Shown piece after piece: positions 4,314 to 40,920 of a DNA stretch of 64,000 nt. How positions within the stretch are numbered: position 1 is the stretch's first letter; every line of letters begins with the position of its first letter. Under the pieces are notes generated by a model, which was not told the DNA's origin, did no database searches, and saw nothing but the letters and a program-made list of their open reading frames with translations. A program made the position numbers and the translations under genes. Source of the DNA: Planctomyces sp. SH-PL62 (GTDB taxonomy: Bacteria > Planctomycetota > Planctomycetia > Isosphaerales > Isosphaeraceae); assembly GCF_001610895.1 (NCBI RefSeq), contig NZ_CP011273.1, positions 868,001-932,000 of the forward strand, written 5' to 3'.

Positions 4314-5234
4314 GTGGTCGATTTGCGCGTGAAGCTGGGGCGGTTGTCGCTTGCGAATCCGGTGCTGACGGCGTCGGGGACGTTCGGGTACGTCCGCGAG
4401 ATGGCGGGATTCGTCCGCCTGGAACGCCTGGGGGGCGTGGTCCCCAAGACTGTGACTCAACGCCCCCGCGCGGGGAACCCGACGCCCCGAACCGTCGAGA
4501 CCCGCGCCGGGCTGCTCAACGCCATCGGCCTCGACAACGACGGGATCGACCACTTCCGGGAGCACCACCTGCCGTACCTCCGCACCACGGGGACGGCCGT
4601 GATCGCCAACATCGCGGGCGAGGACGAGGACCAGTTCGTGTCGATGGCCGAGGCGATCGGCGGCGAGCCCGGCGTCGCGGCGGTCGAGTTGAACGTCTCC
4701 TGCCCGAACGTCAGCCATGGGCTCGACCTGGGGATCGACGCGGCGGCCGTGGGCCGGCTGGTCCGCCGGGTGCGGGAGGTCTGCCCGATACCGGTGATCG
4801 CCAAGCTGACCCCCAACGTGACCGACGTCGTGGCCATCGCCGCGGCCGCCGCGGAGGCCGGGGCCGACGCCGTCACGCTCATCAACACCGTCCGCGGGAT
4901 GGCCGTGGACTGGCGCCGACGCCGGCCGATCCTGGCGAACGACGTCGGCGGCCTGAGCGGCCCGGCGATCAAGCCGATCGCCCTGCGGATCGTCTGGGAC
5001 GTCGCCCGCGCCCTGCCTACGCTCCCCATCATCGCCGTCGGCGGGATCGCCGACGCCGACGACGCCCTCGAGTTCCTCGTAGCCGGCGCGTCGGCCGTGC
5101 AGGTCGGCACGGCGAGCTTCTACAACCCCGCCGCCGCCGAGAACGTCCTCGACGGGATCGCCCGCGCGCTGGACGAGGCCGGCGTCGCCGCCGTCGCCGA
5201 CTTCATCGGGACCGCCCGATCGAACCGCGACTGA
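4314..5234 (+). CDS. pyrD: Dihydroorotate dehydrogenase, class 1B catalytic subunit
   Basis: It oxidises dihydroorotate to orotate in pyrimidine synthesis using FMN. The GTG at 4314 is chosen because AAAGGAG at 4297-4303 precedes it and the conserved family N-terminus (DLRVKLGRLSLANPVLTASG) begins right there; this gives 306 residues. The catalytic cysteine C130 in ELNVSCPNV marks the class 1 enzymes, and NTVRGMAVDW, GGLSGPAIKP and the FMN phosphate loop AVGGI are typical of class 1B. Class 1B enzymes normally work with an iron-sulfur/FAD subunit PyrK, which is not in this window. Confidence 0.93.
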   Translation: MVDLRVKLGRLSLANPVLTASGTFGYVREMAGFVRLERLGGVVPKTVTQRPRAGNPTPRTVETRAGLLNAIGLDNDGIDHFREHHLPYLRTTGTAVIANIAGEDEDQFVSMAEAIGGEPGVAAVELNVSCPNVSHGLDLGIDAAAVGRLVRRVREVCPIPVIAKLTPNVTDVVAIAAAAAEAGADAVTLINTVRGMAVDWRRRRPILANDVGGLSGPAIKPIALRIVWDVARALPTLPIIAVGGIADADDALEFLVAGASAVQVGTASFYNPAAAENVLDGIARALDEAGVAAVADFIGTARSNRD

Positions 5235-5244
5235 GACGCCCCGA

Positions 5245-5787
5245 TCAACGAAGCCGCGCGAGCGCCCGGAAGGGGACCAGCAGGACGCACGCCGCCATGC
5301 CGAGCCCGAGCGCGGCGACGGCTCCCCCTACGGCCGCGCCGACCGGCCCCAGGACCGTCTGCCCGTGGGCGAACCCCTCCAGGAGGACCCAGACGGTCAG
5401 CCCGCAGGAGGCCCCGGACGTGACGAGCTTCATCTTGGGGAGCCCGCCGAAGACCCAGGCCAGGGCCCGGAGCAGCCCGATCAGGGCGATCACGACGAGG
5501 GGCCAGGCGAAACCGGCCGCGACTCCCGAGGCGATCGCCGCGATCCAGGACTGGCTCGCGAGCCCGCCCGCCAGCGCCCCGATCAGGCCCGCCCACACGG
5601 GCCCGCCGATCGAATCGCCGCCCCCGCCGGATGGCCCGGGAGGGCCGGAAGAGGCGGACTGTTGCCACCGCTGGCGGTCGGCCTCGGCGTTCCAGCGGCC
5701 CACCATCTCGGCGGCGGACCTCGGCGGGCCCGTGTACCAGCCGGTCGCGCCCGCCTGATAGCCGCGATTGTAGTCGTCGATGCTCAT
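5245..5787 (-). CDS. Small integral membrane protein of unknown function
   Basis: I do not recognise a family. The 180-residue protein starts MSIDDYNRGYQ, chosen because GAAGGGA stands just upstream of this ATG and an earlier start would add a Pro/Arg-rich tail unlike a protein N-terminus. The first 70 residues are polar with a Gly/Pro/Ser-rich linker. Four hydrophobic segments follow, with the pair of Ala/Gly-rich helices and a final segment ending in a basic tail RALARLR. It converges on pyrD with a ten-base gap. Confidence 0.65.
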   Translation of the reverse strand: MSIDDYNRGYQAGATGWYTGPPRSAAEMVGRWNAEADRQRWQQSASSGPPGPSGGGGDSIGGPVWAGLIGALAGGLASQSWIAAIASGVAAGFAWPLVVIALIGLLRALAWVFGGLPKMKLVTSGASCGLTVWVLLEGFAHGQTVLGPVGAAVGGAVAALGLGMAACVLLVPFRALARLR

Positions 5788-5893
5788 GCGCGAGTCCCTT
5801 CGCGTTGGAAAGCGGTCGGGGCGCGGGCCGCGCGGCTTCGCGCGAGCCCCGGACGAAGATCGTCGCATCCGGAGCCTCGACTTGAGCGCCGTC

Positions 5894-6607
5894 TCAGCCC
5901 CCCTCGCGGACGACCCGATGGATCGTCCCCGGCCGGCGCTCGCCGGCCTCGTCCAGGGTCCAGGCCGGCTCGGGCTCGACGATCAGCCCCCGCGCGGCGG
6001 CCTCCGCCGGGAAGGACTCGGCGGAGACGCGGTAGGGGGTGGCGATCAGGGCCTCGCCGCCGGCGGCGAGCATTTCGGCGAGCACCTGGGCGACCAGGGG
6101 GACGAGTCGCTTCTCATAGAGCACGTCGGCCGCGATGATCCGGGGGAAGCGGACGTCGGGGGGCTCGCGCCAGTCCAGCAGGGTCGTGCTCGCGTGTTCC
6201 GCGGGGAAGCCGTTCTCGGCGACGCTCCGCCGGATGAAGCCGAAGGCGGCGGGGTCGTAGTCGCTGAAGCAGACGCGGAATCCCAGGGCCATCGCGGCCA
6301 GGCCCCCCAGGCCCAGCCCGCAGCCCAGTTCCAGGACCGGCTCCTCACCGGGATCGACGCCCCCCCAGCGGGCGAGGACGGCCTCGGCGAGCATCCCCGC
6401 GCCGGGCCAGAGGTAGGCCCAGTAGGGCATGTAGTCGTCGCGGCGGTTGCGGGCGTGGACGTCCGGGTCGTCGAGCAGGCGGTCGGGCTCGACCGGCCGG
6501 GCCAGGCGGATCGCCCGTCCGGCGATCGTGAGTATCGAGACCGTCGTCGGCCCCTCGTATTCGGGCCCCGTGGGCGTGGCGTCGTGGGGGGCGGGCGCGA
6601 CCGACAT
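5894..6607 (-). CDS. SAM-dependent methyltransferase of the METTL16/NNT1-like type
   Basis: This 237-residue protein contains the SAM-binding motif I VLELGCGLGLGG near residue 93, the acidic loop SDYDP that would hold the ribose, and the later block IIAADVLYEKR. The preceding PYWAYLWPG segment is characteristic of the family that includes yeast NNT1/EFM7-like and METTL lysine methyltransferases. The substrate, a protein or small molecule, cannot be told from sequence. It is divergent from the thioesterase gene, with a 118-base gap that should carry both promoters. Confidence 0.8.
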   Translation of the reverse strand: MSVAPAPHDATPTGPEYEGPTTVSILTIAGRAIRLARPVEPDRLLDDPDVHARNRRDDYMPYWAYLWPGAGMLAEAVLARWGGVDPGEEPVLELGCGLGLGGLAAMALGFRVCFSDYDPAAFGFIRRSVAENGFPAEHASTTLLDWREPPDVRFPRIIAADVLYEKRLVPLVAQVLAEMLAAGGEALIATPYRVSAESFPAEAAARGLIVEPEPAWTLDEAGERRPGTIHRVVREGG

Positions 6608-33066: not shown

Positions 33067-33993
33067 TCAGCTCGTGATGCCCTTCGTGAGATGCATGAAG
33101 GCGGTTTCGAGGTTGATCTCGTCTTCCTTGAAGAGGGTCAGCTCGAAGCCGTTCTCGAGGATCCGGCTGGCGAGGAAGCCGTACTGGTGGACGCCGGGGC
33201 GGAGCTTGACGATCAGCACGCCGGCCTTCTCGTCGACGGTCTCGACCTCGGGCTGGGCTTCGAGGAAGTCGGCGGCTTCGTTCAGGCGTTCGGCGACGTT
33301 GATGTTCAGGACGATGTCCGTGCGGACCCGCTTCATGACCTCGGTGACTTCGCCGTTCACCAGCAGGCAGCCCTGCTCGATGATGCCGATCTTGTTGCAG
33401 ATGTCGGCCAGCTCGGGGAGGATGTGGCTGGAGACGAGGATCGTCTTGCCCATGCTCCGCAGCTCTTTCAGCAGCGCCCGCATCTCGATCCGGGCGCGGG
33501 GGTCGAGGCCCGAGGCGGGCTCGTCCAGGAGGAGCACCTGGGGGTCGTGCAGCAGCGTCCGGGCCAGGCCCAGGCGCTGGGTCATCCCGCGCGAGAGGCT
33601 CGTCACCATCGCATCGCGCTTGTAGGTCAGGTCGACGAGCTCGAGGACTTCCTCGCAGATCTTGCGACGGGCGGGGCCCTTGATTCGGTAGGCGGCGGCG
33701 AAGAATTCGAGGTACTCGATGACCTTCATGTCGTCGTACACGCCGAAGAAGTCGGGCATGTAGCCGATGACGCGACGGATCTCCTTGGACTTGGTGTAGA
33801 TCGAGTAGCCGCAGACGGTGGCCTCGCCCCAGCTCGGGTTGAGCAGCGTGGCGAGGATCCGCATCGTGGTGGTCTTGCCCGCGCCGTTGGGACCGATGAA
33901 GCCGTACACGTCCCCCTGATTGAGCGTCAGGTTGAGGCGGTTCAGGGCGTACATGTCGCCGTACATCTTCGTCAGGTCGTGAGTCTCGATCAT
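33067..33993 (-). CDS. ABC transporter ATP-binding protein, ABC-2 type
   Basis: The 308-residue protein has Walker A GPNGAGKTTT, the signature LSRGMTQRLGLAR, Walker B VLLLDEPASGLD and the switch H in VSSHILPE. The C-terminal third is the extra domain of ABC-2 export ATPases. It follows the large membrane protein at 34058-36385 with a 64-base gap, so the two probably form one transcript. The substrate of this export system is not known; comparable planctomycete pairs resemble gliding-type or cell-envelope ABC transporters. Confidence 0.88.
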   Translation of the reverse strand: MIETHDLTKMYGDMYALNRLNLTLNQGDVYGFIGPNGAGKTTTMRILATLLNPSWGEATVCGYSIYTKSKEIRRVIGYMPDFFGVYDDMKVIEYLEFFAAAYRIKGPARRKICEEVLELVDLTYKRDAMVTSLSRGMTQRLGLARTLLHDPQVLLLDEPASGLDPRARIEMRALLKELRSMGKTILVSSHILPELADICNKIGIIEQGCLLVNGEVTEVMKRVRTDIVLNINVAERLNEAADFLEAQPEVETVDEKAGVLIVKLRPGVHQYGFLASRILENGFELTLFKEDEINLETAFMHLTKGITS

Positions 33994-34057: not shown

Positions 34058-36385
34058 TCAGGGCCGGGTCGGATCAGAGGCGGCGGAGACGGCCGCGACC
34101 CTGGCGCCGGGCGATTTGAGCGGCAGGACGACCCGCAGCAGCGTCGTCTGCTCGATCCGGGCCTCGTTGGGGGCGTTGCCGATGGCCACCTGCGCCGCGG
34201 GGCGCTTCGTCCGGGCGACGAGCATCGGCCGCTGGAGCGCCAGCTGGCCGGTGAGGTCCAGGTCGTGCAGGGTCGAGTTCCCCAGCGGCTGCTCCTGGCC
34301 CGTGCGGCGGGACTCGCTCTCGTGGAACATCACGGACAGCAGCAGGTCGCCCCGGTTCAGGAGGGCGTCGGGGGTCCCCGTCTCCCCCTTCATGTAGCGG
34401 GGCTCGCGCGACTTGAGTTCGCCCGAGAGGGTGCGGTCGCTCTGCAATTCCACCCGGATCGTCTGGCCGGGGGCGAGGTCGCCGAGCTGATAGACCTGCT
34501 TGCCGAAGGCGAGGAGGGCGTCGGTCAGCGGGTAGGTTTGCAGGTTCGTGATCGTCCCCTGGAGGCGGTCGAAGCCGGCGACGGCCAGGTCGGACTCGAC
34601 GACCGGCGAGGCCGGGCCGAACCATCGCGAGGAGACGGTCTTGGTGCTCCAGATCGGGATGCGGACCCGTTCCAGCCGGTCGAGCCCGCCGGTCGGCGCG
34701 TACGAGTAGCCGCCGCCGGAGAACGAGAAGCGGCCCGTGGAGCCCCCCATGCCGCCGAACTGGCTCTCGGGCACGCCGAACCAACTCGTCACCACCTCGA
34801 CGCCCGGGGCGGGACGGGCGGGCTCGCCGGTCGAGGCCGGCGCGAGCGGCGGCGCGTCGGCCGGGCCGTCGACCGGCATCGGCAGGAAGCCCAGGTCGTA
34901 GTCGCGGTTCTGCGGGCTGAACAGGGTCGCCCACGATCGCCCTCGGGTCAGCCCGGAGACCTGGTCGACGTCGACCAGGTCCACCTTGTTGACCAGCAGG
35001 TCGTTCCCCTTGAGTCGGTAGGCGGCGAAGTAGGCGAGCAGGCTGACGGCCGTCACGATCAGGGGGAACGTGATCCAGGTCAGCTCCATCCGCTTGAGGA
35101 CCTTCTTGAGGAAGAAGTAGTCCCCCGGGCCGATCGCCAGGATGTAGAGGAAGATCAGGAACGCGACCAGCCCGAACGGCACCAGCTTGACGCGCGGGAA
35201 CTGCTCCAGGGCGACCCGGAGCTGGCTCGCCAGGTCGGTGACGCCGGTGGCGTAGAACCGTCCCGTCCCCCCCATCATGGCGGCGCCGGCGTCCTCCTGG
35301 AAGCGGTCGCGGCGCAGGTCGAGGGCCTGGACCCAGAAGAGGCCGCGGTCGGTCCAGTCGGCGAAGACCTTCTCCTCGACGTCGACCCCGATCAGCGTGA
35401 CCCGGCCGAAGCCGAGAGGCCCCCGGACGATCAGCGGCAGGTTGGCGATCGACGCCAGGACCTTGCCGCCGCGAGCCTCCACCTCTTCCATCTTCGTCGC
35501 CATGTGGGCCGGGCTGCCGGGGGGGGTGATCGGCTTGGTGGAGTTCGCGAAGGTGTCGAGCGCCTCCAGCGACTGCACCCGCTCGCGACCGGTCAGGAGG
35601 GCCGGGAGCGCCTGGCCGAGGGAGGATTCGCGGACCGCCTGCCAGTTCTCGCCGACGGCGACCACCAGGTGGCCGCCCCGCCTGGCCCATTCGACGAGGG
35701 CCTCGCCTCGGGGGCCGGCGAGCATCTCCAGCGTGGCCCGGTCGGCGGTGTCGAGCACGACGACCCGCGCGCCGTCGTAGCCCAGCCAGCGGCCGGGGAG
35801 GCGGTCGGCCTCGGCGTCGATCGCGGTGAGGACCAGCTCCGATTCGCGGCCGTCCGACCGCTTGAAGCCGGCGACCTCCTTCACCTGGTCGACCCCCTGG
35901 GGCCTCCCCACGGTGAGGATCCAGGAATCGTCGGGGGCCAGGGCGGTCAGGTCGGTGCGGGCGATCTGGTCGCGGGTCCGCGCGCCCAGCCAGCGGCCGC
36001 CCTCGTCATAAAACCGGACCGAGAACTCGCCGTCGCGGCCCCCGGCGCGGGTGTAGGCGACGTAGGTCCGGGTCTCGCCGGCCGGCAGGTCGATCGGCTG
36101 TCGGACCGAGGTGGGGACGCCGTCGTCGTCGCCGACCACCACGTCGAGGAAGCCCCGGAACGGGACGCCCCCCCCCTTGACCTGCACCCAGACCGGCGTC
36201 CACGCGCCGATCTTGAAGACGTCGGCCCCGCCGAAGCCGATCCGAAGGTTCTCGACCTCCACCGGCAGGGCCGCCCGCGCCGGGCCGGGCGCGACCAGGA
36301 CGAACGCTCCGACGAGCGCCGACAGGACGATCCAGGATGCCAATCGGGGGCGGCGACGCAGCGGCGGACGGGAGTTGATCATCAT
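34058..36385 (-). CDS. Large membrane protein with glutamine-amidotransferase-like periplasmic domain
   Basis: The 775-residue protein begins with a signal-like helix (WIVLSALVGAFVLVAPGPARA) and a large extracellular region with VWVQVKGGGVPFRGFLDV, a DUF4350/GldG-like amidotransferase fold suggested by VVVLDTADRATLEML and GFGRVTLIGVD. Two transmembrane helices lie near residues 407-425 (LVPFGLVAFLIFLYILAIG) and 441-461. The segment between and the last third are mostly beta. It precedes an ABC ATPase and is likely part of the same transporter or of a regulated export system. No enzyme motif is certain. Confidence 0.7.
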   Translation of the reverse strand: MMINSRPPLRRRPRLASWIVLSALVGAFVLVAPGPARAALPVEVENLRIGFGGADVFKIGAWTPVWVQVKGGGVPFRGFLDVVVGDDDGVPTSVRQPIDLPAGETRTYVAYTRAGGRDGEFSVRFYDEGGRWLGARTRDQIARTDLTALAPDDSWILTVGRPQGVDQVKEVAGFKRSDGRESELVLTAIDAEADRLPGRWLGYDGARVVVLDTADRATLEMLAGPRGEALVEWARRGGHLVVAVGENWQAVRESSLGQALPALLTGRERVQSLEALDTFANSTKPITPPGSPAHMATKMEEVEARGGKVLASIANLPLIVRGPLGFGRVTLIGVDVEEKVFADWTDRGLFWVQALDLRRDRFQEDAGAAMMGGTGRFYATGVTDLASQLRVALEQFPRVKLVPFGLVAFLIFLYILAIGPGDYFFLKKVLKRMELTWITFPLIVTAVSLLAYFAAYRLKGNDLLVNKVDLVDVDQVSGLTRGRSWATLFSPQNRDYDLGFLPMPVDGPADAPPLAPASTGEPARPAPGVEVVTSWFGVPESQFGGMGGSTGRFSFSGGGYSYAPTGGLDRLERVRIPIWSTKTVSSRWFGPASPVVESDLAVAGFDRLQGTITNLQTYPLTDALLAFGKQVYQLGDLAPGQTIRVELQSDRTLSGELKSREPRYMKGETGTPDALLNRGDLLLSVMFHESESRRTGQEQPLGNSTLHDLDLTGQLALQRPMLVARTKRPAAQVAIGNAPNEARIEQTTLLRVVLPLKSPGARVAAVSAASDPTRP

Positions 36386-36960: not shown

Positions 36961-39900
36961 TTAAAGAGGGAGGAATTCGATGCCGTCGGGTTTGAGGTTG
37001 AATCGGCGGGCGCGGATGACGCTGCCGCCGCCTTCGACGTAATAGATGATGAGGATGCTGTGATCCTTCAACTCGACGGTGGCGGGGTAGGCGCCGATGC
37101 ACGAATCGATCGGATACGGCCCCCGCCAGGTTTCTGCGTCGTCGCCGCTGATGTGGATCGACGTCTTCGGGAGGCGATGGCTCAGGATGATCTCGCCGCT
37201 GCTCAGCCGGGTCAGATGCGGGGAATGGGCCGGGAAGCCGGCCTTTTTCGCCTCCGACCAGGACCTGGCCTCATCATCGCTGATCGCGTAGTACATGTCG
37301 TCGGCGAAGGAACGCATCGCTGCATACAGGCGACCGTCGGCGAGGCGGATGACGTCGGTCTCGGCGTTGAGCCCGACGCCCGGCGGCGCCTTGATCGCGA
37401 CGGGGGCTTCCCAGGTCAGGCCGCGATCGGTCGAGCGGGCGGTCCCGGCGATGCTGAGCCCCGTTTCTTCGTCTCCGCGGTAAAGGCCCAGAACGCAGAC
37501 GCCGTTGGGAAGTTGGCGGACGGGGGCGGAGCAGACCCAATCCGGGAACACCGAGCGGGCCTCGGCTTCCCACGTCTTGCCGTCGTCGCGGCTGACGACG
37601 ATCTGGACGCCGGTGTCGCTCCTGTTCTGCTCGAAGAGTTTCGGGTCCTTGATGGTCTTCAGGCGCTTGCGGTCCTTCTCGGCGATCGAGAAGAAGGTGC
37701 AGATCAGCGTGCCGTCGTCGAGCTGGGAGACGTGGGGATCGCGGTTGTCGTCCTCGTCGTCGTACAGGACGGCCGGCTCCGACCAGGTGCGGCCTTCGTC
37801 TGAGGAGCGGACCATGCAGATGCGACCGCCGAGCGGAAAATCGTCGGCCGGGAGCGAAACATGGGTGTAGCCGGCGTAAAAAACCGCGAGGATGTCGCCG
37901 TTCTTCAGGCGGCAGGCGTCGGGGAAGGCCTGGTACGAGTGCGCCTGCTCGCCCCTGGAAATCACGATGGGATCGACCGACGCCGGCGGCTTCGACGAGA
38001 CGGGGGCCGGAGCCGCCGTCGCGTCCCAGTAGTCGGCTTGCATCCCCTTCACGTCGACCTGGGTCCAGACGTGAAGCCTGGAGCCGTCGTGGACGACCTC
38101 GGTGAGCGTCGCAAGCTCCGGGCGCAGGACGGCTTCGAACACCGCGATGTCCCAAAGGATCCGCTGGGGGTCGTTGGGGGCGTGCGACTCCCAACGCTGG
38201 ACCAGATAGTCTCGCAAGCCCCCTTTCCCCTTGAAGCGAGCGTCGACTTCGGCCTTGGTCCACTGGAAATGGTCGAGGGTGGTGTTGACCATCGCCTTCA
38301 GCTCGACGCCGCTCTTGAGGAGATGGGCGGCGGCGTGCAGGTCGCCCTGCGAGTTGAATTCATTGGGCGTGAGACGCTCGTCGTCGTAGCGGAATCCCAT
38401 CACGTGGACGGTCATCCTGTCCGTGACGCTCGGGTCGAGCAACAGCGCGGAGGCCACGTTCGTGTAGGCGCCGAGCACGAAGACTTGCAGTTTTCGCCCG
38501 GCCGGCATCGCCTTGGCCCTGGCGATGATGTCGCGAGCGGCGGGGGAGTCGACGGGCGTGGAGGCCGCCGGCATCGGATTCGGCGCCCCGATCGGATGCG
38601 AGATGCGGTCCTCAAGCTTCAGGAGGCCGAGCACCTCCTCGTTCATCCGCTGGCTGGTTCGGGTGTTGGTCGGAAAGGCCTCCGTCTCCCCCCAGCCGGC
38701 CGAAGACAGGCCGACGACGTGGAATTCCGGGGCGACGAGAGCCCGGTAGATCGCGAACGGGTCATCGACCTCGTTCCCCGTATCGGCGTCGATGTAGACG
38801 TGGGGCTTCGACGGCCCGTCCAGAGTCTTGACGGTGGAAGCTTCGGCGGCCGCGTGCGGCTTCGACGAACCGGAGGCGAGCGTTTCCGCCGCTTCCCAGT
38901 AATCGGCCTTCATCCCCTTGATATCGACCTGAGTCCAGACGTGAAGCCTGGAGCCGTCGTGGACGACCTCGGTGAGCGTCGCCAGCTCCGGGCGCAGGAC
39001 GGCTTCGAACACCGCGATGTCCCATAGAGTGCGCTGGGGGTCGTTGGGGCTGTACGATTCCCATCGTTGGGCCAGATAGTCGCGTACGCCCCCTTTCCCC
39101 TTGAAGTGGGCGTCCACGTCGGCCTTGGTCCACTGGAAGTGGCGGAGTGTGCTGTTGACCATCGCCTTCAGCTCGACGCCGCTCTTGAGGAGATGGGCGG
39201 CGGCGTGCGGGTCGCCCTGGGTGTTGGATTCGTTGGGGGTAAGACGCTCGTCGTCGTAGCGGAATCCCATCACGTGGACGGTCAGCTTGTCCGTAATGCT
39301 CGGGTCCAGCAACAGCGCGGAGGCCACGTTCGTGTAGCATCCGAGCACGAAGACCTGGAGCTTCTGGCCGGCGGGGGTCTCCTTCGCCTTGGCGATGATG
39401 TCGCGAGCGGCGGGGGAGTCGACGGGCGTGGAGGCCGCCGGCATCGGATTCGGCGCCCCGATCGGATGCGAGATGCGGTCCTCAAGCTTCAGGAGGCCGA
39501 GCATCTCCTCGCTCATCTTCTGGCTGGCCCGGGTGTTGGTCGGGAAGTCGAGCGGGCCCTCCCAACCGATCGTGGACAGGCCGACGACGTGGAACTCCGG
39601 GGCGATCAGAGCCCGGTAGACGGCGAAGGAATCGTCGACCTCGGCCGCCAGGTCGGTGTCGATGTAGACGCGGGGCGGCGTCGAACCGCCGAGGATCTTG
39701 TCGACGATCGGATGGAGGCAACGGGCCTGCCGGTCCATCCCGAGGTCGTTGGGGTGGACGCCGTCCACGGTCCCCTCGCCGTCGGAGCCGATCAGGTCCG
39801 CTCCCGGAACCAGGAAGAGCCCCTCGACCCCCTCGTTCTTCAGGCTCAGCACCGGAGCCTCCAGCCTTCGGGAAAGCTCGGTGGGATGCGTCTCCGGTCG

Positions 39901-40767
39901 GATGTGCGACTGGGCCACGAAGACGATCGGCGTATGCGGACGCGCCTTGCGGATCGTCCGCACGAGTCGGGTCACCCTCTCCGTGTACACTTCCTGGCCG
40001 TCGCCCATGTTCCAGGTGCAGTCGATCAGGTAGGCCGCGGGGTCAAGCTCGGCGAGTGCCTCCCCGACGGGAGGCTGCATCGTCCCCGCGGACGAGAACC
40101 CCAGGTTGATCACGGGCCGATCCAGCATCCGACCCAGGATGGCCGTCCAGACCATCCCCGGCCGCGACGCGCACCCGCCCTGGACGATCGACGTCCCGTA
40201 GACCACGATCGGCCTGCGACGATCCTCGGGACGCGGCGCGGGCTTCTCCAGGACGGCGTCCGGCGGCGCCCCGATCTCCAGCGACTTCGTGCCGTTGTAC
40301 AAGGGGAGGTACACCAGGCATTCCCGCCGCCGCCTGGGCCCTTCCGGGAACTCGATCCTGGCGAGATTGCCGTCCCGCTTTGCCGGCCTGCCGTTCCCGA
40401 TGAACCGCCAAGAGCCGTCGTCGTCGCGGGCGTACAGATCCAGCCCGCTGACCCCGGTCGCGGGCATGTGAGGCATGGCGAGCGACTCGCTGGCGACCGA
40501 CCACCGAAGGCTGACGGCGGCGGCGTCCGTGTCGAACCGGATGCAGATCCCCGCGCTCTCCGCGCTCAACTGCCACGCCAGGGGCGAGAACTTGTCCTTC
40601 ACGGAATCCGGCAGCCGGACGAACGGGCTCGCCGTGTCCGCCCAACCTTTCCCCTCGATCTCCAACGTCGCGGCGTCGCGCCAGCGCACGTCGTCCGCCG
40701 AGGCTCGGCCGACATCCCAGGCGGACATCACCGATAACGCCAACGCAATCCGGCAAGCCACTCGCAT
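36961..40767 (-). CDS. Giant exported fusion: SGNH hydrolase, two nucleoside-hydrolase-like domains, sialidase-like domain
   Basis: With the ATG at 40765-40767 this is 1268 residues; starts at 40779 or 40800 are also in frame. A signal peptide ends near ASA (residue 24). Residues 30-360 form an SGNH esterase: nucleophile S193 (GTSIVQGG), G223, N253 (CTWNMGDG), D335/H338 (VDGVHPN). Residues 365-625 and 655-915 are two copies of a nucleoside-hydrolase-like domain with the calcium loop: copy 1 reads DTDLAAEVDD, copy 2 DADTGNEVDD. From about 925 a BNR sialidase-like propeller has Asp boxes SSDEGRTW, SRDDGKTW, STDRGLTW. The order is unusual. The role may be degrading extracellular nucleosides and acetylated sugars. 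Confidence 0.82.
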   Translation of the reverse strand: MRVACRIALALSVMSAWDVGRASADDVRWRDAATLEIEGKGWADTASPFVRLPDSVKDKFSPLAWQLSAESAGICIRFDTDAAAVSLRWSVASESLAMPHMPATGVSGLDLYARDDDGSWRFIGNGRPAKRDGNLARIEFPEGPRRRRECLVYLPLYNGTKSLEIGAPPDAVLEKPAPRPEDRRRPIVVYGTSIVQGGCASRPGMVWTAILGRMLDRPVINLGFSSAGTMQPPVGEALAELDPAAYLIDCTWNMGDGQEVYTERVTRLVRTIRKARPHTPIVFVAQSHIRPETHPTELSRRLEAPVLSLKNEGVEGLFLVPGADLIGSDGEGTVDGVHPNDLGMDRQARCLHPIVDKILGGSTPPRVYIDTDLAAEVDDSFAVYRALIAPEFHVVGLSTIGWEGPLDFPTNTRASQKMSEEMLGLLKLEDRISHPIGAPNPMPAASTPVDSPAARDIIAKAKETPAGQKLQVFVLGCYTNVASALLLDPSITDKLTVHVMGFRYDDERLTPNESNTQGDPHAAAHLLKSGVELKAMVNSTLRHFQWTKADVDAHFKGKGGVRDYLAQRWESYSPNDPQRTLWDIAVFEAVLRPELATLTEVVHDGSRLHVWTQVDIKGMKADYWEAAETLASGSSKPHAAAEASTVKTLDGPSKPHVYIDADTGNEVDDPFAIYRALVAPEFHVVGLSSAGWGETEAFPTNTRTSQRMNEEVLGLLKLEDRISHPIGAPNPMPAASTPVDSPAARDIIARAKAMPAGRKLQVFVLGAYTNVASALLLDPSVTDRMTVHVMGFRYDDERLTPNEFNSQGDLHAAAHLLKSGVELKAMVNTTLDHFQWTKAEVDARFKGKGGLRDYLVQRWESHAPNDPQRILWDIAVFEAVLRPELATLTEVVHDGSRLHVWTQVDVKGMQADYWDATAAPAPVSSKPPASVDPIVISRGEQAHSYQAFPDACRLKNGDILAVFYAGYTHVSLPADDFPLGGRICMVRSSDEGRTWSEPAVLYDDEDDNRDPHVSQLDDGTLICTFFSIAEKDRKRLKTIKDPKLFEQNRSDTGVQIVVSRDDGKTWEAEARSVFPDWVCSAPVRQLPNGVCVLGLYRGDEETGLSIAGTARSTDRGLTWEAPVAIKAPPGVGLNAETDVIRLADGRLYAAMRSFADDMYYAISDDEARSWSEAKKAGFPAHSPHLTRLSSGEIILSHRLPKTSIHISGDDAETWRGPYPIDSCIGAYPATVELKDHSILIIYYVEGGGSVIRARRFNLKPDGIEFLPL
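38026..39675 (-). repeat. Tandem 870-bp duplication inside the fusion gene
   Basis: The segment 38896-39675 and the segment 38026-38805 are copies at a constant offset of 870 bases (290 codons). Long stretches are identical in DNA, for example around GACGTGAAGCCTGGAGCCGT in both. Differences are mostly in the calcium loop and the first 60 codons. Each copy encodes one nucleoside-hydrolase-like domain. Confidence 0.9.
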
Positions 40768-40920
40768 CGACCTATCCATCCTTCCGACCGCAAGCCTCAT
40801 TCGCCCGAAGCGCCCCGCCGCCAGGCGGCCGGACCCCCGAATACGCTAGGCCTCCGGAGCGGGAAACGCAAAGGAAAAGGCCGTCGACTCGCGGGGCGGT
40901 TCGGCGGGGCGGTCGAGTCG

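Follow-up and report, generated by a model that had tools for sequence, protein, structure and literature searches.

A rare planctomycete protein joining an SGNH esterase-type unit, two nucleoside-hydrolase-fold domains and a sialidase-fold propeller

Ordinary nucleoside hydrolases (NHs) are single-domain enzymes. Among multidomain proteins, SiaBb1 of Bifidobacterium bifidum is a fusion of an SGNH domain and a sialidase of glycoside hydrolase family 33 (GH33), in which the esterase aids sialidase action (PMC10298468). Sde_0182 is a multidomain carbohydrate-binding protein with an NH-like domain that reportedly lacks activity on nucleosides and has been proposed to contact a furanose (PMC8910321, citing Hehemann 2011). 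Here, we describe a gene of Planctomyces sp. SH-PL62 found in a window of 64,000 nucleotides (the whole stretch of DNA analysed; NZ_CP011273.1, positions 868,001 to 932,000), the product of which combines an SGNH unit, two NH-fold domains (NH1 and NH2) and a sialidase-fold propeller. SiaBb1 resembles this product in that a single extracellular protein carries both an SGNH esterase-type unit and a domain of sialidase fold, but it has no NH domains and possesses a working GH33 domain, whereas the propeller of the window protein lacks, by alignment, two GH33 residues, the FRIP arginine and the acid/base aspartate, and hence does not provide the SGNH plus catalytic GH33 combination typical of SiaBb1. 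Sde_0182 and its family, PF07632 (Sde182_NH-like), similarly display an NH-fold domain within a carbohydrate-linked multidomain protein, but Sde_0182 carries carbohydrate-binding domains rather than SGNH and propeller domains, and the NH part of the window protein matches only IU_nuc_hydro (PF01156). No description of the four-domain order was found among the open-access papers searched, most of them judged by titles and the beginnings of abstracts; further sources were PMC3608555, PMC9487903 and PMC5352709. The four-domain fusion looks very rare and is a new arrangement of known domain families.

The gene is a single minus-strand open frame (36961-40800, 1279 aa). The start at 40767, yielding 1268 aa, looks better than the one at 40800: its Met aligns with a Met in each of three relatives, and downstream of it come a hydrophobic stretch and then a small-residue site. 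The signal peptide, already proposed in the preliminary description of this DNA, was judged by eye on this alignment rather than with a signal-peptide program, and the protein is accordingly only predicted to be exported. Residue numbers throughout count from the 40800 start.

36961..40767, minus strand: whole gene, 1268 aa (open frame, Pfam, alignment with relatives)
40696..40767, minus strand: probable signal peptide, residues 12-35 (by eye, alignment with three relatives)
40252..40686, minus strand: GxDLY domain, residues 39-183, the N-terminal part of the SGNH unit (Pfam PF14607, 4.6e-43)
39703..40215, minus strand: Lipase_GDSL_3 SGNH domain, residues 196-366 (Pfam PF14606, 5.4e-47)
38851..39690, minus strand: NH1, residues ~371-650, motif DTDLAAEVDD, off-family residues L384, A386, C488 and S525 (Pfam, family alignment, model)
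37981..38811, minus strand: NH2, residues ~664-940, motifs DADTGNEVDD, EFN and WD884, family-typical residues kept (family alignment, motifs)
36964..37968, minus strand: sialidase-fold BNR propeller, residues ~945-1279 (Pfam, alignments, model)

The domain order obtained from Pfam (GxDLY, Lipase_GDSL_3, IU_nuc_hydro in two stretches, BNR_2) agrees with the preliminary description, in which four domains had been placed in this order in one frame of about 1268 residues. Relatives of solved structure were found by sequence for the SGNH, NH and propeller parts, and folds were predicted from alignments of the window and locus proteins; the resulting domain and fold scores are far beyond chance. The frame is intact and shows strong codon bias, with a G+C content at third codon positions of 0.88.

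Searches of other genomes bore out the suggestion that this order is uncommon. NH matches at an E value of 1e-10 or better were found in 11 of 45 genomes of the same family, own genome (G000) included, and only in G000 and one other genome, G014, is the NH fused to SGNH and propeller domains, the remaining nine encoding an NH-only frame. In a draw of 392 genomes across the phylum, outside of which G014 evidently fell, 12 genomes carry an NH at 1e-15 or better, with the fused form confined to G000. We also read 53 loci of named genomes; an NH frame is present in 52 of them (51 with a full pair of flanks), and none of these frames carries an SGNH or propeller domain. Propellers matching at 1e-25 occur in 18 of 297 genomes of the class, and the frames at 18 propeller loci other than those of G000 and G014, two further matched places being left out of this reading, encode the propeller only, some with ~230 residues in front. 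In G002, from the same genus, the SGNH unit stands alone, without an NH or propeller remnant within its 15-kb stretch. Thus, the four-domain order was seen once, in G000, and a three-domain SGNH-NH-propeller order once, in G014, where the corresponding gene adjoins a second, SGNH-NH gene. The fused form spans two genera, with 70% identity in the SGNH part and 83% in the propeller.

The SGNH unit retains its catalytic motifs, namely, GTSI (Ser204), the block II Gly, Asn264 and Asp346-x-x-His349. Blocks I, II, III and V are all present, so that both Pfam and motifs place it in the Lipase_GDSL_3/SGNH group; the esterase activity ascribed to it earlier is a prediction from these motifs. The closest solved relative by sequence, 4lhs (2.8e-53), shows the same motifs in the alignment. 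Both 4lhs and the Bacteroides SGNH protein WP_004296574.1 share GxDLY, Lipase_GDSL_3 and all four blocks with the window protein but have no NH or propeller domain within the same chain. A 2022 review names no Lipase_GDSL_3 member of known function.

The two middle domains are NH-like, as the preliminary description had held. IU_nuc_hydro matches them in two stretches (best 378-610, 1.6e-34), as it does 21 of 21 NH members scanned, and the closest solved relative by sequence is 4kpn (4e-10). A model of the NH1-NH2 tandem, built on an alignment that covered the second copy only, reached a predicted local distance difference test score (pLDDT) of 89.5 and a predicted template modelling score (pTM) of 0.55, which fits two well-folded domains but does not fix their mutual placement; an intramolecular NH1-NH2 dimer was considered and, given this pTM, dropped. 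All 50 Foldseek matches listed for the model are nucleoside or riboside hydrolases. PF07632 is matched by eight of 21 NH relatives, and a Pfam scan found no match to it in the window protein or in NH2 alone.

In a 63-row NH family alignment that includes both window copies, D673, E677, D679, D680, N816, W883 and D884 (NH2 numbering) occur in every row, and N676 and F815 reach 97-98% conservation. The motif aspartates are retained in NH1, which has L384, A386, C488 and S525 in place of family residues. WD594/WD884 and N526/N816 are kept in NH1/NH2, in columns invariant across the 63 rows; we take the Asp of the former to be the last calcium-site Asp and the latter to be the ribose-contact Asn. 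Neither copy displays the DxDxxxDD fingerprint, both reading DxDx5DD, which amounts to a two-residue insertion in the hallmark motif relative to four solved chains from three different proteins (4kpn, 6ba1 and two chains of Escherichia coli RihA). These PF01156 nucleoside hydrolases share with the window domains the fold, the metal-site aspartates, the Thr/Asn motifs and the final WD/HD Asp but have two fewer residues in the aspartate motif. The SH-PL62 genome yields four IU_nuc_hydro matches in three proteins (G000:C1:3050905-3051711, 5117798-5118601 and the window gene), all of the DxDx5DD form, with no canonical DxDxxxDD nucleosidase among the four.

The C-terminal part matches BNR_2 (1067-1246, 1e-15), and its model (pLDDT 88.1, pTM 0.88) adopts the sialidase beta-propeller fold expected of GH33, in line with the sialidase-like domain described previously. 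The closest solved propeller by both sequence (2.1e-14) and fold is 5hx0 (Dfer_1899), a single-domain sialidase-fold protein of unknown function, 23-24% identical to the window propeller, in which the FRIP Arg is also absent in the alignment; the VIA Z score is 38.2 to 5hx0 and 36.1 to the sialidase 2ber (301 residues, root-mean-square deviation 2.3). There are three strict Asp-boxes (999, 1070, 1123) and two looser ones (1174, 1218). We compared the GH33 catalytic residues, as defined in PMC10298468, across 19 rows (the window propeller and 18 aligned relatives), with columns placed by sequence-profile alignment to a Porphyromonas sialidase rather than by residue superposition. The nucleophile pair Y1238/E1147, aligned to the sialidase residues, is present in 19 of 19 rows. 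The arginine triad is incomplete: R1163 (19 of 19) and R1198 (16 of 19) are kept, and the FRIP Arg is absent from all 17 rows that have a residue in its column (E in 13, Q in 3, V in 1, gap in 2; Q957 in the window protein). The acid/base Asp is likewise seen in none of the 19 rows (Y in 16, S in 3; Y975 in the window protein), one row having D in the next column. Every one of the 19 rows has H980, D1018 and R1020. In five loci (L108, L112, L114, L115 and L116), the propeller frames are 541-573 residues long, and none of the three domain profiles matches their ~230 leading residues.

Over 276 aa, NH1 and NH2 share 81.5% of their residues, and their DNA is 87% identical, in a patchy manner. Against this background, they share one identical tract of 114 bases:

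39390..39503, minus strand: 114-base tract in NH1 identical to a tract in NH2 (codon shuffle)
38520..38633, minus strand: matching 114-base tract in NH2 (codon shuffle)

An identical run of this length was reached in none of 5000 codon shuffles, or in 47 of 5000 when codons for the same amino acid were shuffled. Such a tract in an 87% background suggests gene conversion between the two copies, which we regard as probable, although the second shuffle favours it less than the first. The AAEVDD and ESN forms of NH1 also occur in the second gene of G014, which makes NH1 look more like an established subtype than a product of random decay; taken together, the alignments suggest that NH2 is the family-typical copy and NH1 a second subtype partly homogenised with NH2. 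NH1 is 70.7% identical to the second G014 gene over 198 aa and 64.9% to the first over 288 aa, and NH2 is 66.9% identical to the first over 293 aa and 63.0% to the second over 200 aa. These pairwise identities over unequal lengths, along with the shared residues, hint at a weak correspondence of NH1 to the second gene and of NH2 to the first, and in trees built for the NH and the SGNH part, the four closest rows do not separate. The window gene could have arisen by merging of neighbours such as the SGNH-NH-propeller and SGNH-NH genes of G014. The latter of these is interrupted by an insertion element (L021, ~4912-6230) encoding a DDE-type transposase, ISAs1-like by eye, with short target repeat flanks.

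From these domains, folds, motif residues and distribution, and from the neighbours of related genes, we infer that the protein is an exported multi-domain glycan-processing fusion that couples deacylation with cleavage or binding of glycosides, perhaps in a furanoside-containing glycan; we give this reading a probability of roughly one half. The substrate, a polysaccharide or a glycoconjugate, would first lose acyl, probably acetyl, groups to the SGNH unit; the NH-fold unit would then bind or hydrolyse a furanoside (ribose-like or another pentofuranose) through its metal-aspartate site; and the propeller would bind or cleave a sugar nearby, using a remodelled site in which the Tyr/Glu pair is retained. 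A more specific version, with three coupled activities on an acylated, furanose-bearing glycan, would make the NH domains O-furanosidases (motif DxDxxNExDD) and the propeller the founder of a new glycosidase family operating with the Tyr/Glu pair, an invariant His where the Asp usually stands and no carboxylate-binding FRIP Arg; as a whole, this version is tentative and rather unlikely. A fusion is a hint that the joined parts act on one material, and the families linked here (Lipase_GDSL_3, DxDx5DD NH and FRIP-less propeller) have few or no characterised members, so that the substrate of one part, once found, would point to those of the others. Should the NH fold indeed cut O-linked furanosides, it would add a fold to the known set of glycosidases.

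Several neighbourhoods of related genes point to polysaccharide use. In G149 (L127), frames for GH2, SGNH and NH follow in that order with overlapping ends. In Bacteroides finegoldii, a BNR_2 protein (27% identical to the window propeller), a GH88 and an SGNH relative (36%) are encoded in a row, in a locus that also includes GH115, two GH43, SusC/SusD-type genes and a hybrid sensor, and a Paenibacillus NH relative (32%) adjoins genes for GH43, an MGH1-like GH and a sugar ABC transporter. Other observations weigh against a role in glycan processing. No carbohydrate gene cluster surrounds the window gene among eight neighbours scanned with Pfam, four of which had no match; a MazG-like gene and a pair of genes for M16 peptidases lie next to it. 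Only four of 78 loci with a match hold two or more of the three kinds of domain, and one of these is G014 itself and another qualifies through weak propeller matches. A census around standalone NH genes, which covered 82 of 191 neighbour frames at 23 of 51 loci, mostly omitted one repeated flavobacterial arrangement and had no control set, was thin and mixed in outcome: among the best 25 of 127 families, there were three sulfatases and two each of GH9, GH3 and alpha-L-fucosidase, as well as two PfkB-type kinases, also compatible with nucleoside use.

The preliminary description had read the protein as a multi-enzyme stripping acyl groups, bases and sialic-like sugars, of which the domain identities hold up, the esterase motifs being intact. 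The remainder, a true nucleosidase plus a true sialidase, appears improbable, even though the Pfam names, the NH fold with most catalytic residues, the closeness of the propeller to sialidases with its Tyr/Glu pair and two arginines, and the existence of SiaBb1 all speak for it. Removal of bases sits poorly with the two-residue insertion in the hallmark motif relative to the four solved chains. The NH-like XopQ is reported in a review to be inactive on common nucleosides, and nucleoside hydrolase activity was undetectable for HopQ1, which has a different altered motif; together with the reported inactivity of Sde_0182, the nearest described multidomain NH-like protein, this renders a base-stripping role doubtful, although the motif changes in those proteins differ from that in the window protein. 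Removal of sialic-like sugars finds no support, given the absence of two GH33-defining residues (FRIP Arg 0/17, acid/base Asp 0/19), in columns placed by profile alignment only. The missing propeller residues, the departures of NH1 from the family at L384, A386, C488 and S525, the NH-like domains without nucleosidase activity described in the literature and the lone SGNH unit of G002 would fit a protein in which the propeller together with NH1, or else the two NH domains, are non-catalytic sugar-binding or scaffold modules holding the esterase on its substrate. We consider this possible but on the unlikely side, given that H980, D1018, R1020, E1147, R1163 and Y1238 are invariant in 19 of 19 propeller rows and that the family residues are retained in NH2, a pattern suggestive of selection acting on a site and not on a shell only.

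The fusion might instead be a recent accident among tandem paralogues, devoid of joint function, as its rarity (two of 45 same-family genomes), the patchy 87% DNA identity of NH1 and NH2 and the likely parent layout displayed by G014 would allow. However, two genera carry a fused form, at the SGNH and propeller identities given above, the frame in the window is uninterrupted and strongly codon-biased, and SGNH and NH adjoin as separate genes in G149, making this account quite improbable. We prefer the glycan-processing fusion as the simplest reading.

Forty-one records of a plasmid collection match the query, none of them covering 80% of it. Frames of equal length, 426 residues, adjoin standalone NH genes in G013 (L023 4911-6188) and G439 (L135 6774-8051), the one in G013 having no Pfam match. 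In the window, a 775-residue protein without a Pfam match is encoded at 34058-36385 (minus strand), next to an ABC transporter ATPase gene (33067-33993). PF07596 (SBP_bac_10) is a family expanded in planctomycetes; it has 107 matches in the 6.8-Mb SH-PL62 genome versus matches in none of 14 control genomes, and BNR_2 has 11 matches in the SH-PL62 genome.

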